This document shows positions 956 to 21,659 of a DNA stretch of 39,441 bases, piece by piece (within the stretch, counting starts at the first letter, position 1; every line of letters begins with the position of its first letter). The translations under genes and the position numbers were made by a program. The notes below the pieces were generated by a model that saw only the letters and a program-made list of their open reading frames with translations, did no database searches and was not told the DNA's origin. The DNA is from a virus. The stretch covers positions 1 to 39,441 of IMG/VR virus record IMGVR_UViG_3300008735_000029. One strand, given 5' to 3'.

Positions 956-1208
956 TTATCCACAGCTTATCCACAGGTTATTATATTTTACACAGGTTAT
1001 AAACACTTTATCCACAAGGTATCCACAGATTTCACAAAGTTATTCACAAAGTTATTAACAATTTTGAAAATGTCACACTTTTTGAAATAAAAGTTATTAA
1101 CAAGTTATTAACAATTTGTGAAGTTATCCACAATTTTACACAGGATATCCACAAAATTATTAACAGATTTCACACAGTTTTGCACAGTTTATTAACAGCT
1201 TATCCACA
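956..1208 (+). repeat. Array of DnaA boxes and near-boxes, all in one orientation
   Basis: Exact TTATCCACA occurs at 956-964, 967-975, 1008-1016, 1124-1132 and 1200-1208, and TTATTCACA at 1040-1048. The variant TTATTAACA occurs at 1052-1060, 1094-1102, 1105-1113, 1157-1165 and 1189-1197. Further near matches are TTTTACACA (986-994, 1134-1142), TTATAAACA (997-1005), GTATCCACA (1019-1027), ATATCCACA (1145-1153) and TTTTGCACA (1178-1186). All lie on the plus strand, and several neighbours are 11 bp apart (956 and 967; 986 and 997; 1094 and 1105), close to one helical turn, so proteins bound there would face the same side of the DNA. Confidence 0.85.
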
Positions 1209-4392: not shown

Positions 4393-4917
4393 ATGGATAC
4401 TTCTAATAAGAAACAAATAACTTACACTGTAAAAGATATAACAATAGAAGAAACAAGAGCGCAAATTGCGTGCATGCTTAATGAATTATGGCATAGCAGA
4501 CTTCCTAAAATACACTGGTCTAATGTTGTTAGAAATACACATTATGTTTGTTATGTTTTTAAATATAACGAAGCTATAATAGGTGTGGGTATATGGTCAT
4601 CTCCTGTTGCTCAGAATAGGATGAAAAACGGTAAAACAATTTTAGAATTAAGAAGATTAGCACTTTCTGATTTTTGTATAAAAAATACAGCTACTTATGT
4701 TATAGCAAAAATGATTAAAGAAATTAAAAAGAAATTTCCAGAATTAACCAAATTAGTCAGTTATCAAGACACAGATGTTCACTTAGGAACAATATATAAA
4801 GCCGCTAATTGGCATATGCATGGTCAATTATCTTTTATGGATTGGGATACAAAGAAAAGAAAAAGAAATACGGCACAATCTAAATCTTCTAAGATAAGAT
4901 GGGAATATTACTTGTAA
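4393..4917 (+). CDS. Mom-like GNAT-fold DNA modification protein
   Basis: A 174-aa protein resembling phage Mu Mom and its relatives, a GNAT-fold group that modifies adenine in phage DNA and shields it from restriction. Visible family features are ILELRRLAL near the middle, the helix TATYVIAKMIKEIKKKFPEL, then LVSYQDTDVHLGTIYKAANW and HGQL, matching Mom's 'SYaD..hhGtiYqAaNf...G'. The length is similar to classic Mom proteins. It is the second gene of an early operon, so DNA could be modified soon after entry or during replication. A general N-acetyltransferase is the alternative. The modified base cannot be told from sequence. Confidence 0.7.
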   Translation: MDTSNKKQITYTVKDITIEETRAQIACMLNELWHSRLPKIHWSNVVRNTHYVCYVFKYNEAIIGVGIWSSPVAQNRMKNGKTILELRRLALSDFCIKNTATYVIAKMIKEIKKKFPELTKLVSYQDTDVHLGTIYKAANWHMHGQLSFMDWDTKKRKRNTAQSKSSKIRWEYYL

Positions 4918-7367: not shown

Positions 7368-8177
7368 ATGTTTTTAAATGTCTTAGACCTATTCTCTGGA
7401 ATAGGAGGTTTCAGTCTTGGATTAGAACGAACAAACGGATTCAAGACTGTTGCCTTTTGTGAGAACGATGTTGATTGTCAAAAGGTTTTACAAAAACATT
7501 GGCCTAGTGTTCCTATTTTTAACGACATAAATAATTTAACTTATGAAAAAATCAAAGAAAGAAAAATTAAAAAACCAGATGTTATTGTGGGAGGATTCCC
7601 ATGCCAAGACATCTCAGACGCGAACATCGACAGAGACAAAACAGGAGGTATCACAGGAAAAAGAAGTGGCCTCTGGAAAGAATTCTCAAGACTCATTGAA
7701 GAAATCCAACCTTCCTGGGCAATTATCGAAAATGTCGCATCCCTTAGAAATAAAGGACTTGCATTGGTCTTACAAAATCTCTGGGAGATCGGGTATGATG
7801 CGGAATGGCATATTATATCCGCTTGTTCCGTTGGTGCAATTCACAGAAGGGAAAGAGTTTTTATCGTTGCCTACCCCAACATCGAGAGATTACAAAGATA
7901 CGGCAAAAGATTGGAGGAATCTAGCCAAGTATGCTCACAAATACAGATTAGCGCCATGCGTAGCGAAAAAAGAAAAAAGGAATGGTTACCTATCAGTCAA
8001 CCTAGTGGAATGGATGATGGGATTCCCAGAAGGGCATACAGACTTAGACAGTTAGGTAATGCTGTCGTTCCGCCAGTCGTAGAGTATATAGGCCGTTGTA
8101 TATTAGACACAGAAGAAACACAATACTTAAATGAAAGAGCTTTTTATATTAAACAAAACTATCCAGATCAAATTTAA
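7368..8177 (+). CDS. C5-cytosine DNA methyltransferase, solitary
   Basis: A 269-aa enzyme that would transfer a methyl group from S-adenosylmethionine to C5 of cytosine. Motif I DLFSGIGGFSLGL (residues 7-19), motif IV GGFPCQDIS with the catalytic Cys, motif VI ENV, motif VIII near HRRERVFIVA and motif X RLRQLGNAVVPPVVEYIG are all present. It is short for the family because the target-recognition region is small. No partner restriction enzyme is nearby, so it is probably an anti-restriction or self-marking enzyme. Codon use within about 7570-8050 is richer in C-ending codons (ATC, GAC, TTC) than neighbours. A second family-like reading frame lies over the last third (see findings). Target site unknown. 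Confidence 0.9.
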   Translation: MFLNVLDLFSGIGGFSLGLERTNGFKTVAFCENDVDCQKVLQKHWPSVPIFNDINNLTYEKIKERKIKKPDVIVGGFPCQDISDANIDRDKTGGITGKRSGLWKEFSRLIEEIQPSWAIIENVASLRNKGLALVLQNLWEIGYDAEWHIISACSVGAIHRRERVFIVAYPNIERLQRYGKRLEESSQVCSQIQISAMRSEKRKKEWLPISQPSGMDDGIPRRAYRLRQLGNAVVPPVVEYIGRCILDTEETQYLNERAFYIKQNYPDQI

Positions 8178-9304: not shown

Positions 9305-9349
9305 GGGAGGGAGGTCACAATTCTATAATTTCATTAATTGGAGCAAATA

Positions 9350-11011
9350 ATGAGTAAAGATTCAGACAGTAAATTTGTAAACACACATTTAGATTGTCCT
9401 AGTTGTGGACATAAAAAATGTTTTGGTATTAATTCAGATGGTTCTGGATGGTGTTTCAGTTGTCAAACAAGAATACCTAACTACAAAGAAACGGCAACAC
9501 CTTTTACAAACCCTATTCCTGCTAAAACCACTATCATCACTTCTGATTTTAGTGCTTTATCCGACAGAAAAATAACAGAAGAAACTGCAAGAAAGTTTAA
9601 TGTGATGACAACACACGCATTAGATGGAACTGTAAGTAAACATCACTATGCTTATTATAATGACGAAGGAAATAAGGTAGCTACTAAAACAAGAGACACT
9701 AAAAACAAGAAATTTTCTTGGGAAGGAAACACAACAGAAACCGTACTTTTTGGTCAACAATTATTTAAAGACGGAAAGTATCTTACTATTACTGAAGGCG
9801 AATGTGACGCTATGGCCGTATATCAATTATACGGTGGATTTCCAGTTGTTTCTATCAAAAATGGTGCAGGTAACGCAGAAAAAGACATAAGAAATAACTT
9901 AGAATTTGTAGAAGGTTTCGACAATGTTGTTATTTGTTTTGACAACGACAAGGCAGGTAGAGAGGCATCTCAAAAAGTAGCAAGACTTTTGAAACCAGGA
10001 AAAGCAAAAATCATGTCTTTGCCAAAAGGTTTCAAAGATGCTAACGATATGTTAATTAAGAACGAACATAAAAAATTCGTTAATTGTTTTTGGAACGCTA
10101 AGAAATACACACCTGCTGGTGTTATAAATGTTTTTGAAAAGAGAGAAGACTTTCACAAAAGAGAAAAGATAGATACTGTTCCTTTTGCTTGGCAAGGATT
10201 AAACAAAAAAATATATGGTCTTCAACAAAAAACCCTTTTAACATTAACCTCTGGCAGTGGTTTAGGAAAAAGCAGTGTCACTAGAGAATTAACGCATCAT
10301 TTAATTAAACAGACTGAAGATAATGTAGGAATCATTGCCTTAGAGGAAGACTGGCGAAGAACTGTCGATGGTGTTCTATCCATTGAGGCCGACACAAGAC
10401 TATATATAGACCACATAAGAGAAAATATACCTAAAGAAGAAATAGATTCTTATTTTGACATCCTAAAAGATGATAAAGGGAACAGCAGATTATGGATTCA
10501 TTCTCATTTTGGAACAAACGACATCGAAGAAATCTTTTCAAAGCTTAGATTTATGATTATAGGTTGTAATTGTAAGTGGGTTATTGTAGATCATCTTCAT
10601 ATGTTAGTGTGTTCGACAACAGAAGGCGATGAAAGAAGAACGATTGACGCTATCATGACTAGACTCAGGAGTATTGTCGAAGAAACTGGTGCAGGTCTTA
10701 TCCTGGTATCGCATCTAAGAAGAGTAGATGGAAACAAAGGACATGAAAACGGCATACAAGTCAACCTAAGTCATTTAAGAGGTAGTCAATCCATAGCACA
10801 GCTTAGTGATACCGTAATAGCTTTAGAAAGAAACCAACAAGCAGACGATCCAGAAGAAGCTAACACTACAGTATTACGAGTTTTAAAATCTAGATACACA
10901 GGAGATGTTGGTTACGCTACTAGCCTTACTTATGACAGGAATACTGGAAGATTACACGAACTACAAAGAGAAGCTTTTGAAAAAGAAAGCGGAGACTTAC
11001 AATGGAATTAG
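9350..11011 (+). CDS. T7 gp4-like primase-helicase
   Basis: A 553-aa bifunctional replicative enzyme. The ATG at 9350 has GGAG 6 nt upstream and is preferred over a TTG at 9338. A zinc-ribbon primase head carries Cys16, Cys19, Cys35 and Cys38. The TOPRIM domain shows ITEGECDAMAVYQ and VVICFDNDKAGREAS. The RecA-like helicase has Walker A SGSGLGKSS, VIVDHLHML (Walker B region) and LRGSQSIAQLSDTVIALER. The length is close to T7 gp4 (566 aa). It unwinds the fork and makes RNA primers for the polymerase encoded immediately downstream (10-bp overlap). Confidence 0.95.
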   Translation: MSKDSDSKFVNTHLDCPSCGHKKCFGINSDGSGWCFSCQTRIPNYKETATPFTNPIPAKTTIITSDFSALSDRKITEETARKFNVMTTHALDGTVSKHHYAYYNDEGNKVATKTRDTKNKKFSWEGNTTETVLFGQQLFKDGKYLTITEGECDAMAVYQLYGGFPVVSIKNGAGNAEKDIRNNLEFVEGFDNVVICFDNDKAGREASQKVARLLKPGKAKIMSLPKGFKDANDMLIKNEHKKFVNCFWNAKKYTPAGVINVFEKREDFHKREKIDTVPFAWQGLNKKIYGLQQKTLLTLTSGSGLGKSSVTRELTHHLIKQTEDNVGIIALEEDWRRTVDGVLSIEADTRLYIDHIRENIPKEEIDSYFDILKDDKGNSRLWIHSHFGTNDIEEIFSKLRFMIIGCNCKWVIVDHLHMLVCSTTEGDERRTIDAIMTRLRSIVEETGAGLILVSHLRRVDGNKGHENGIQVNLSHLRGSQSIAQLSDTVIALERNQQADDPEEANTTVLRVLKSRYTGDVGYATSLTYDRNTGRLHELQREAFEKESGDLQWN

Positions 11012-12780
11012 TCTTTGATATAGAAACAGATGATTTAAAAGCCACCAAAGTGTGGTGTATTGTCGCTCAAGATTCTGGCTCTGGTCAGATTTATAAATTT
11101 GCTCCTCCTCAACTGGAGTCAGGTCTTGAGTTACTTCAAAAAGCAGACACATTAGTAGGCCACAACATAATAGGTTTTGATATTCCAGTAATACATAAAT
11201 TATTAGGTGTTGATCTATCTCACAAAACACTTATTGACACTCTGGTTTTATCTAGGTTATTCAATCCTAGTAGAGAAGGAGGTCATAGTCTAGGGATGTG
11301 GGGATACCGCTTAAAATACCACAAAATAGACTTTACAGAATACGAAGAATACTCCAAAGAAATGTTAGAGTATTGTGTTCGTGATGTTCAATTAAATACT
11401 TTAGTACATGAAAAATTAAAAGAAGAATCCAAAGGCTTTTCAAAAGAAAGTGTAAAGATTGAACAAGAAGTTTCAAAAATTTTAAAACAACAAGAAGAAA
11501 ATGGTTTTTTATTCAACACTTATCAAGCAACGATGTTATCTGCTGACCTACGAGAGAAAATGCAAAATGCAGAAGATGAGGTTCATAAAGTTTTCAAACC
11601 CAAACTTGTCAATGTGCGTGAAGTTAATCCGTACATAAAGAAAGATGGAACATTATCCAAAAGAGGATTAACAGATGAAGAATACGATAAAGTCCTTACT
11701 GAAATAGTTTTAAGAGAACCTGAACAAGACGAGAACGGAGAGTGGGTTACATCTAAACCAGAACCGTTTATGAGAAAGAAATTACAAGATTTTAACTTAG
11801 GCTCAAGGAAACAAATAGGAGAATACTTACAAGACTTTGGATGGAAACCACAGGATTTTACACCTACTGGTCAACCTATTGTTGACGAAAGAAGATTAAG
11901 CAAGATAAAAAATATACCTGAAGTAAAACTGATCGCTGATTATTTATTACTTCAAAAAAGAATAGCTCTTATTGATTCCTGGATAGAGGCCGTTGAAGAC
12001 GATGATCGAATACATGGCTTTGTCATATGCACTGGAGCAATAACTGGCAGGATGTCAGCTAGGAGTCCAAACACACAACAAATACCTAGTTTAAAAAGTC
12101 CTTACGGAAAAGAATGTAGGTCTTGTTGGATTGTTCCTGAAGGTTATAAATTAGTAGGCGTTGATGCTTCAGGATTAGAATTAAGAATGCTTGCACATTA
12201 TATGAAAGACGAGGAATTTACAAATGAAATTATCAACGGAGACATCCACCAACGTAATCAACAAACTGCAGGACTTAAATCAAGAGATCAGAGCAAAACT
12301 TTCATCTATGCACTCTTGTACGGAGCAGGAAATAAAAAAATTGGACAAGTGGTTGGAGGAAACGCAAAAGATGGAGCAAGACTTAAAGAACATTTCTTTG
12401 CTAATAACCCTGCATTTAGAAGACTTCGAGAGAGAGTATCAAAAGCATCGACAAAGGGTTATCTCAAAGGATTAGACGGAAGGAAGATTTACATACGACA
12501 TCCTCATGCATCTTTAAATAGTTTGCTACAAGGTGCAGGTGCTGTTGTAATGAAAAAGGCTCTTATGTTGTTGAATGATAAGGCAACAAAAGAAAAGTTA
12601 GATTTTAAATTTGTCGCTAATGTTCACGATGAGTGGCAAGTAGAAGTCGTTGAAAAAGATGTAGAGAATTTTGGATCTCTTGCAGTCCAAGCTATTAAAG
12701 ATGCAGGAGAATATTTTAACATGGAGTGTCCTTTGGATGCCGAATATAAAGCAGGAGATAATTGGAGTGAAACACACTGA
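11002..12780 (+). CDS. Family A (T7-like) DNA polymerase with 3'-5' exonuclease
   Basis: A 592-aa replicative polymerase, shorter than T7 gp5 (704 aa). Exonuclease motifs: VFDIETDDL (Exo I), VGHNIIGFDIPVI (Exo II), YCVRDVQLNTL (Exo III). Polymerase motifs: VGVDASGLELRMLAHYM (A), RDQSKTFIYALLYGAG (B, O-helix) and ANVHDEWQVEV (C). The residue at the E. coli Pol I position 762 is Tyr, as in T7. An intact exonuclease implies proofreading. It overlaps the primase-helicase by 10 bp and the following HNH gene by 14 bp. Confidence 0.95.
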   Translation: MELVFDIETDDLKATKVWCIVAQDSGSGQIYKFAPPQLESGLELLQKADTLVGHNIIGFDIPVIHKLLGVDLSHKTLIDTLVLSRLFNPSREGGHSLGMWGYRLKYHKIDFTEYEEYSKEMLEYCVRDVQLNTLVHEKLKEESKGFSKESVKIEQEVSKILKQQEENGFLFNTYQATMLSADLREKMQNAEDEVHKVFKPKLVNVREVNPYIKKDGTLSKRGLTDEEYDKVLTEIVLREPEQDENGEWVTSKPEPFMRKKLQDFNLGSRKQIGEYLQDFGWKPQDFTPTGQPIVDERRLSKIKNIPEVKLIADYLLLQKRIALIDSWIEAVEDDDRIHGFVICTGAITGRMSARSPNTQQIPSLKSPYGKECRSCWIVPEGYKLVGVDASGLELRMLAHYMKDEEFTNEIINGDIHQRNQQTAGLKSRDQSKTFIYALLYGAGNKKIGQVVGGNAKDGARLKEHFFANNPAFRRLRERVSKASTKGYLKGLDGRKIYIRHPHASLNSLLQGAGAVVMKKALMLLNDKATKEKLDFKFVANVHDEWQVEVVEKDVENFGSLAVQAIKDAGEYFNMECPLDAEYKAGDNWSETH

Positions 12781-19022: not shown

Positions 19023-21659
19023 TTATAAGTTAGGTTGTAAGTTTTTCATAGCATTTAAGCCATTCAAACTATCACTATACATACCAAAAAATGCCTTTGT
19101 ATTATCAGGTATTGATGCGTTTGCATAGATATCTTCTGGTTCGTACCAAGCTGTGGCTGTTGGCATTTCTATTTGCCTGTAATCACTAAATCCTGGTACG
19201 AATCCCATAAAAGCAATCAAGGTTGAGGAGTCTCCGTACTCTCCTGTTTCCTGTTGTTTCTCTTCTAATTGTTCTTGTTGTTGTTTTATATTCTGAGCGA
19301 CAATCTTATCTGCGACAGTATCAGCTTCAGAGGTTGTAGAAACTTCTGCAATGGTTACATTAATCTCAGCCTGTACTGAACCAACTGCTATATTATTGTC
19401 ACCACTAGTATTCCCAACTGCTACATTATTATCACCACTAGTATTTCCTACTGCTGTATTATTATCACCACTTGCATTGCTTGCAACACTACTGTTGTCG
19501 GTGGTTTCAGTCGTGTTGGTGGTATCTGATCCTACAGCTACATTACTATTACTGTTGGTATTCCCAACTGCTGTATTATCCGCACTCGCAGTATTTCCTA
19601 CTGCTGTATTATCCGCACCTACGGTTGTACTGTTTGAATCAACAGTTGTTGAAGTATCTAATGTTGATGAAGTGTCTAAAGCACTACTAGTAGTCTCTAC
19701 ATTAGAAGAAAAACTAATTGTTTCTGTAGTAGTACTCATAGATAAAACTTGTTGTGTTTGTATTGCTGAACTCGCTACTTGAGCAGAGATACTAGGTGAA
19801 TTACTAGTGCTTATTCCACCACCAGATGCTGAATTAGCTACTGCGGTACTTGTAGTATTAGCAACACCACCAGAGGCTTTTGTGTTACCTGTTGCTTGTA
19901 TAGACGTGCCTGCTGTCGTTCCACTAACACTATTAGTAGCTGCTTGTATGGTACTGGCTACTACATTTAACTGAGTTTCTCTACTGATACCACTCTTTTC
20001 TTCTTCTGCTACCCTTGTTTCTTCAGTCTCTTCTTCAATATCTTCGACTTCTTCTTCAATGTCTTCTTCAACAAGTTCAATCTCTTCTTCTATTGTTTCT
20101 TCTTCTATTGCTTCCATCTCTTCTTCGAACCATTCTTCTAATTCTTCAACGGTTTCAAATTCTAGAAACTCGCGTGGTTCTTCTTCGAAAACTTCAATAA
20201 TTTGCTCATGTTCAAAATGTACTAAAAGTTCTTCTGAAACATCTATTGTTTCGTATTCTTGTTCGAAGTCAAAGGCATATAAATCTTCGTAAGTTTCTTC
20301 ATACACTTCTTCATAGACCTCTTCATAAACTTCCTCATAAGTTTCTTCATAAGTTTCTGTATAAACTTCTTCATAAGTTTCTTCATAGACTTCTTCGTGA
20401 TAAGGATCAAATTCTTCATACGCATCTTCGAATAAATATTCTTCTTCGTAATATAGTTCTTCTTCTACGCGCAACTGTTCTTGTTCTAGGTCATACTCAT
20501 CCATTAAAACATCTACATCATCGTAAGATTCTATAGTTGTTGTTTCCCATTCAACCATACCATCGTCACTAAACTCTACATCTGTGCCGAACCATTCATC
20601 AACTTGTTCTTGTCCAAACTGTTCTACATCTAACTCATACCAATCTTCATCTGTAAAATCTGCACAAGCGTTTTCATAACAAGGATCATTTGGTTCTAAC
20701 CATTCATCGTATTCTTCATCGTACCAATAGTCTTCTTCTGTATATCCGTAATCAAATTCATCTTCAACATAATAAGCTACCGATTCTTCTTGTGTGTAGC
20801 CTGCACAGAAAGGTCCGTATTGAGGATCTAAAGTACATTGAAGATCATCGTATGCATCCCAATATAAAGGACAGGCCGTATCATATAAAGAATTTAAACC
20901 GCATTGTTGTGTCAGATATGCTGCTGCATAACCCAAACATTCTGAACTACTTAATGGATCAGAAGAACAAGCATTATTATATATGAGAGATTTGTTTTCG
21001 AGAAGAGTGTTGTAGGCAGTGCTGTTCCAGTTGGTATTAACACAGTTACTAAGGTTTGTTGAGCCTGTATTACATTCATCGTGGAAAAGGTATTGCTTGT
21101 ATTCAGTACTTGATCCTTGTATACCTATAAGAACATCGTGATTCTTTATATCTAAAGGACCATATCTAAACTCTATAGCAGAGTCAGCTTCGTAGAGTAG
21201 CATCTCTATAGTATTGTCTGATGCTCTATTGTATTCGCGCAGGTTATACCAACCTACTACAAAATAATCGTTGTTGTCTCCAGAAATTTCAAAACTTTTA
21301 GAAAGTATTTTAGAACCACTATCTCTTATAAGATCAGTCCAGAACGGATAGATTGTATAAGGGGTGTCAGGTAACGGATCAGGTGTGTAGTCGTTGCAAT
21401 ACGATGTGGTGAAAGAAAAACAACCATTCGTTGATATGTAGCCACCTGTGTACGTTTCATTATAGAAATCAAAATCAAATCCTATGTCGACCAAGTTTGA
21501 TCGACCATCATCGCTTATATTGTGTTGAGTTGTGCCTGTATATTCTCTTAGATCAAGAATACTTGAAGTACCTGTTGTCCAGTCATTTGCATTCAGATTA
21601 AAACTTAATAATAATCCACATACAAATAAGCTAGTTGCCTTTGTTAAATTCTTTAACAC
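19023..21659 (-). CDS. Large exported protein: NIDO-like domain, Tyr/Glu repeats, Ser/Thr repeats
   Basis: An 878-aa protein with a GTG start behind AGAGGA. A signal peptide (LFVCGLLLSFNLNA) is followed by a region, about 27-210, that resembles NIDO-type extracellular domains (VDIGFDFDFYNETYTGGYIS, TIYPFWTDL, YFVVGWYNL). Next come a Cys-containing section, a very acidic stretch with repeats of YEEVYEE/YEETYEE (about residues 420-465; 20280-20410 on DNA), Glu-rich DNA, then Ser/Thr/Asn repeats with DNTAVGN and SGDNN(T/V/I)AVGN. The C-terminus is less repetitive. It is a surface or periplasmic protein made late in infection. Exported phage proteins of this size are unusual; the role is unknown. 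Confidence 0.75.
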   Translation of the reverse strand: MLKNLTKATSLFVCGLLLSFNLNANDWTTGTSSILDLREYTGTTQHNISDDGRSNLVDIGFDFDFYNETYTGGYISTNGCFSFTTSYCNDYTPDPLPDTPYTIYPFWTDLIRDSGSKILSKSFEISGDNNDYFVVGWYNLREYNRASDNTIEMLLYEADSAIEFRYGPLDIKNHDVLIGIQGSSTEYKQYLFHDECNTGSTNLSNCVNTNWNSTAYNTLLENKSLIYNNACSSDPLSSSECLGYAAAYLTQQCGLNSLYDTACPLYWDAYDDLQCTLDPQYGPFCAGYTQEESVAYYVEDEFDYGYTEEDYWYDEEYDEWLEPNDPCYENACADFTDEDWYELDVEQFGQEQVDEWFGTDVEFSDDGMVEWETTTIESYDDVDVLMDEYDLEQEQLRVEEELYYEEEYLFEDAYEEFDPYHEEVYEETYEEVYTETYEETYEEVYEEVYEEVYEETYEDLYAFDFEQEYETIDVSEELLVHFEHEQIIEVFEEEPREFLEFETVEELEEWFEEEMEAIEEETIEEEIELVEEDIEEEVEDIEEETEETRVAEEEKSGISRETQLNVVASTIQAATNSVSGTTAGTSIQATGNTKASGGVANTTSTAVANSASGGGISTSNSPSISAQVASSAIQTQQVLSMSTTTETISFSSNVETTSSALDTSSTLDTSTTVDSNSTTVGADNTAVGNTASADNTAVGNTNSNSNVAVGSDTTNTTETTDNSSVASNASGDNNTAVGNTSGDNNVAVGNTSGDNNIAVGSVQAEINVTIAEVSTTSEADTVADKIVAQNIKQQQEQLEEKQQETGEYGDSSTLIAFMGFVPGFSDYRQIEMPTATAWYEPEDIYANASIPDNTKAFFGMYSDSLNGLNAMKNLQPNL
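20280..20410 (-). repeat. Tyr/Glu tandem repeat region inside exported protein
   Basis: Short near-repeats of a unit coding YEEVYEE or YEETYEE, seen on the plus strand as recurring CTTCATAAGTTTCTTCATA-type words. It gives misleading long frames on the opposite strand. Confidence 0.8.

Follow-up and report, generated by a model that had tools for sequence, protein, structure and literature searches.

A phased, one-orientation array of DnaA boxes between terS and the early genes of a marine HTVC103P-type phage is a candidate host-dependent replication origin

The DNA that we analyzed (the window) is an IMG/VR virus record that comprises 39,441 bases and is classified there as linear. Since no portal, capsid, or large terminase gene is recognizable in these 39,441 bases, it is a 39-kb fragment, and it belongs to an uncultivated marine phage of the HTVC103P type. 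Its TerS (55 to 62%), primase (44 to 45%), and PolA (49 to 50%) are nearest to those of the Pelagibacter phages HTVC103P, HTVC104P, and HTVC115P, which are 54 kb long and share their gene order with the window, with early and replication genes on the + strand, then an Hsp20 gene, a giant protein, and structural genes on the − strand. The replication genes, Hsp20, RNR, and terS are all homologous and syntenic within this group. HTVC103P-type phages have packaging and morphogenesis of the HMO-2011 type, and the G+C content of the window (34.0%) lies at the edge of the 30.8 to 34.0% range of group III (PMC8528129). Together, the relatives and the G+C content point to a SAR11 host. An 878-aa protein (19023–21659, −), rich in Glu and Tyr, has no Pfam or PHROG match.

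The window encodes a T7 gp4-like primase-helicase (9338–11011, +) with Toprim and DnaB_C domains, as had been predicted, and a family A DNA polymerase, PolA (11002–12780, +). Only this pair fits the original description of the phage as T7-like; the phage is of the HTVC103P type and, strictly speaking, not T7-like. The original prediction had seen no single-subunit RNA polymerase, which marks the transcription-primed T7-like class, and PF00940 is indeed absent from the window and from the complete relatives (∼54 kb), while the control CRP-804 was positive. The lack is thus shared by the complete genomes of the group that were tested. No DnaA C-terminal domain was found in the window, and we rejected a phage-encoded DnaA on this basis.

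The gene for the terminase small subunit (terS, phrog_51) occupies 269–691 on the − strand, and the first early gene, for which no relative was found, occupies 1470–1799 on the + strand; a comparison of close-range conservation through the latter gene was dropped for that reason. Between terS and the early genes, which belong to divergent modules, lies an array of ∼19 head-to-tail DnaA-box 9-mers (956–1208, +). It contains six exact copies of TTATNCACA (956, 967, 1008, 1040, 1124, and 1200), five exact copies of TTATTAACA (1052, 1094, 1105, 1157, and 1189), six sites with one mismatch (986, 997, 1019, 1134, 1145, and 1178), and two weaker sites that are in phase (1030 and 1168). All sites in 956–1208 are on the + strand and none is on the − strand. 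The sites form runs of two, seven, two, and eight: TTATCCACA-GC-TTATCCACA (956–975, +), seven sites at steps of 10 to 12 bp (986–1060, +), TTATTAACA-AG-TTATTAACA (1094–1113, +), and eight sites at steps of 10 to 12 bp, the last of which is TTATCCACA (1124–1208, +). The gaps between most 9-mers are 1 to 3 bp, usually 2 bp, and the only start-to-start steps outside 10 to 12 bp are two of 19 bp and one of 42 bp. The original prediction had counted six and five exact boxes and at least six near matches within about 250 bp, all on one strand, and these counts are correct; its remark that several boxes are 11 bp apart is true, but it understates the order, which extends almost throughout. Directly before the array is a C-rich stretch (905–950; CCCCCCACCCC...CCTGCCCCCCC), which is perhaps a DNA-end or regulatory site; relatives have a stretch rich in C or G at the equivalent place.

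We compared the array with 5,000 dinucleotide shuffles of its 253 bp (956–1208). The 11 exact boxes compare with a shuffle mean of 0.13 and a maximum of 2, and the 17 sites with at most one mismatch compare with a mean of 1.5 and a maximum of 7, which supports the predicted DnaA-box identity; none of the 17 sites is on the − strand. When the window was scanned for boxes, the next best 253-bp segment had four, and the self-similarity of the array region at a lag of 11 bp has a z score of 5.9. The box cluster above chance, the common orientation, and the ∼2-bp spacers are all features of oriC-type origins. In Thermotoga, boxes in the same orientation and 2 bp apart give maximal DnaA complex formation (PMC10316083), and the low-affinity arrays of Escherichia coli oriC have sites 2 bp apart (PMC6727663). 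Cooperative binding of DnaA is thus best, according to published work, with this arrangement. We consider the array a putative DnaA platform, and it is likely that host DnaA binds it. The likeness to these bacterial origins (E. coli low-affinity arrays, Thermotoga maritima) includes the mixture of strong and weak 9-mers, the single orientation, the 2-bp spacing, and an AT-rich side. Unlike them, the phage array is longer, it is interrupted by spacers of 10 and 33 bp, it has no dnaA gene, and no row of DnaA-trios is evident by eye between the boxes and the candidate unwinding element.

This element, at 1209–1469 and thus 3′ of the boxes, has 24% GC. The AT-rich neighbor had been predicted, and among the 100-bp stretches of the window (in a genome that is AT-rich throughout), the third least stable starts at 1288, inside this segment. 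E. coli oriC has its unwinding element 3′ of the nearest TTATCCACA box, and it is because of this geometry that we assign 1209–1469 as a candidate. Sigma-70-like sites, each matching 11 of 12 positions, read toward terS (703–731, −), into the array (757–785, +), and from upstream of the first early gene (1391–1420, +), and motifs similar to the first two are found in relatives. Early promoters had been proposed here; the sites themselves are present, but promoter-like sites are no more frequent than expected by chance.

The window contains exactly three copies of the pattern CT[AG]GTNWACA, always on the + strand and always in the terS–early intergenic region: as CTGGTTAACA (712–721, within the terS promoter-like site), CTGGTGAACA (866–875), and CTGGTAAACA (1253–1262). 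The second and third copies flank the array. HTVC115P also has exactly three, at the equivalent place (54249, 54426, and 54633), and HTVC103P has two exact copies, or three in the region with a relaxed pattern (53331, 53492, and 53661); the sequence of the repeat varies between phages. These copies look like a phage operator set that is older than the array, and a phage repressor or initiator might bind them. Many bacteria use DnaA as a transcription factor, and the array has promoter-like sites on either side and is flanked by operator-like repeats 2 and 3; array-bound DnaA might instead control the divergent promoters, as a roadblock for 757–785 or an activator for 1391–1420, and so time early and late genes. 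We find such a transcription switch improbable, because ∼19 sites are more than it needs and because the flanking genes are kept in relatives that lack boxes. GC skew had been proposed as a check for an origin. Its minimum and switch, which coincide with the change in gene direction, occur at the equivalent region in HTVC103P and HTVC115P, which have no boxes, and skew therefore cannot support an origin claim; we rejected it as evidence.

We determined how widely the array recurs by taking the region upstream of terS from 143 contigs (101 nonredundant), with a main comparison set of 22 loci whose TerS identity is at least 70%, the window excluded. In these loci, TTATNCACA occurs 24 times on the + strand and never on the − strand, 250 to 530 bp from terS, and it ranks first among 560 permuted motifs, for which the permutation mean is 0.40. 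At least one box is present, in matching spot and orientation, in 10 of the 22 loci. In the clade, with the window included, TCCAC pairs (7/7) and TTAAC pairs (7/7) are exactly 11 bp apart, with none at other distances from 9 to 17 bp. One array (L026) reads TTATCAACA-ag-TTATCCACA-gg-TTCTTAACA-ag-ATCTTAACA, and two contigs that were reached via the primase (L356 and L358) point to the same locus. In the TerS tree, 11 loci (the window counted) have at least two boxes, and 9 of them fall in one clade of 19 (support 96). The other 12 of the 22 loci have no boxes, including one with 94% TerS identity (L013), nor do the nearest isolates, HTVC103P, HTVC104P, and HTVC115P, at the homologous spot; the TerS groups of 60 to 70% and below 60% show no special enrichment, and none of the 17 annotated isolate records searched carries an array. 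Single − strand boxes ∼85 bp from terS in some relatives were taken for the −10 element of the promoter of that gene and discounted.

The trait is therefore patchy, and not all phages of the group can depend on a DnaA origin: HTVC103P and the other box-less relatives must start replication by another way or via other repeats. Many relatives carry other 8- to 11-bp periodic repeats in the same slot, 250 to 530 bp upstream of terS, as do box-less ones such as L013, L448, L465, and L495 (8 to 10 bp), and the slot appears to be a fast-changing repeat region. The presence of these other repeats might also mean that the array serves another regulator, either CtrA or a phage initiator binding iterons. 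In the clade, 15 TTAA pairs have a spacing of 11 bp, vs. 0 to 7 with other spacings, the CtrA-type motif TTAA-N7-TTAA arises from TTATTAACA at 11-bp steps, and phages of Alphaproteobacteria with CtrA sites have been published (PMC9437464). As in our array, sites for a host cell-cycle regulator are concentrated in a noncoding region of those phages, although their DnaA sites are reported to show no positional asymmetry (PMC9437464). However, CtrA would leave TTATCCACA unexplained, and no CtrA was found in one SAR11 genome, in which three of the four OmpR-type regulators are far below the NCBIfam CtrA cut-off and the fourth was judged by eye. Nor did we recognize an initiator gene in the phage, and we regard either version of this explanation as very unlikely.

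Arrays also occur in a second lineage. An IMG/VR scan for TTATCCACA-N2-TTATCCACA returned at least 120 loci; since this sample was picked by the 11-bp box pair, it gives no frequencies. Among the matches listed, 11 loci have seven or more boxes in 300 bp, and in 8 of these 11 densest loci the array is near a TerL of one family. Most TerL proteins of this family are 66 to 74% identical to that of L190 (L105 is 60% identical to L099); they have no detectable similarity to HTVC103P TerL, and no close isolate was found. Five of the contigs (L128, L129, L144, L210, and L211) encode an HTVC103P-like primase or PolA 2 to 5 kb from the array, and the orientation of the boxes relative to the primase varies among contigs of this lineage. 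The array thus appears to track the replication module and not the packaging module, because contigs with an unrelated terminase encode an HTVC103P-like primase-polymerase. Conservation of the boxes in relatives, which had been proposed as a check of the original prediction, holds in part, with boxes in 10 of 22 relatives and arrays in this second lineage but with 12 of 22 relatives and all close isolates lacking them.

These comparisons bear on whether the array could be a packaging (pac or cos) site for the neighboring TerS that resembles DnaA boxes by chance, as its tandem phased repeats adjoining terS might suggest. The repeats are not conserved with TerS: the 94% identical TerS mentioned above has no box beside it, and box content can differ even where TerS is identical (e.g., L036 vs. 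L034). Since, in addition, the second-lineage contigs have an unrelated TerL and the exact DnaA consensus comes out on top of the 560 permutations, a packaging site is extremely unlikely.

We examined the presumed host for its side of the interaction. SAR11 DnaA retains the canonical box-reading motifs RPRQ and RDHTTV. In 1.2 Mb of a SAR11-family genome (G022, L515 to L574) there are only 6 TTATCCACA and 26 TTATNCACA, with no DnaA-box cluster, and canonical boxes do not show where the SAR11 origin lies. Phased runs at 11 bp did not exceed the reversed controls in 1.2 Mb, and the strict pair with a 2-bp spacer was found in 0 of 60 SAR11 genomes, so capture of a host origin was rejected for SAR11. 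The scarcity of strict boxes makes titration numerically plausible, whereby the array, copied with the phage genome, would soak up host DnaA and stop host initiation without being a phage origin. Each phage genome brings five TTATCCACA and six TTATNCACA in its array, and a few dozen copies would therefore outnumber the host boxes; the many weak in-phase sites would also suit cooperative capture. In datA-type titration sites, clustered DnaA boxes bind many DnaA molecules. Clustering is what the phage array shares with them; unlike datA-type sites, it has contiguous boxes that all point the same way, with AT-rich DNA and early genes next to them. Neither adjoining AT-rich DNA nor a constant position between divergent modules would be required of a sink, and arrays on other contigs have HTVC103P-like replication genes nearby. 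We therefore consider this explanation unlikely.

Our preferred reading is that the array is probably a binding platform for host DnaA that acts as the main or an accessory replication origin of the phage, and the original interpretation is in this sense partly supported; titration and promoter control are the serious alternatives. In its favor are the shuffle statistics, the rank of TTATNCACA, the 11-bp spacing, the clustering in the TerS tree, and the co-occurrence with the replication module, as well as the lack of a phage RNA polymerase and of a phage DnaA C-terminal domain and the intact motifs of SAR11 DnaA. Against it are the box-less isolates and relatives, the lack of arrays in SAR11 chromosomes, and the skew minimum in phages without an array. 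In the predicted mechanism, strong TTATCCACA boxes would anchor DnaA, and a directional filament would grow over the in-phase weaker boxes 1 to 3 bp away toward the AT-rich DNA at 1209–1469. Opening of this segment would expose single-stranded DNA on which the phage primase-helicase could load and feed PolA, a route that would replace the transcription-primed start of T7-like phages with an RNA polymerase. Mobile replicons that use host DnaA boxes have precedents in P1 oriR and other plasmid origins, which need a plasmid Rep protein and iterons. The phage array resembles these origins in being host DnaA boxes on a mobile replicon and differs from them in having far more boxes and no recognized Rep or iterons.

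To our knowledge, it is not settled how replication starts in phages that lack an RNA polymerase but have a primase-helicase and a polymerase of the T7 type, and we found no report of DnaA arrays of this sort in lytic phages in the literature searched, of which our coverage is incomplete. An array of DnaA boxes whose position is fixed, and which accompanies the same replication module even where the adjacent packaging genes are unrelated, offers a concrete and testable answer, and it would link infection by abundant ocean phages to the stage that the host has reached in its replication cycle. More tentatively, marine phages with this gene set might generally start from host-DnaA filament origins, the slot being gained, lost, or swapped for other repeats so that related phages switch initiator.

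Two loci concern DNA modification. A C5 cytosine methyltransferase gene (PF00145; 7368–8177, +) is overlapped in another frame by a 170-aa ORF (7543–8055, +) that matches phrog_1008, "DNA methyltransferase" (E = 2.5e-17), as an overprinted pair or a frameshift arrangement. A Mom-like DNA modification protein (phrog_1384) is encoded at 4393–4917 (+), which together with the C5 methyltransferase suggests that the phage DNA may be modified.
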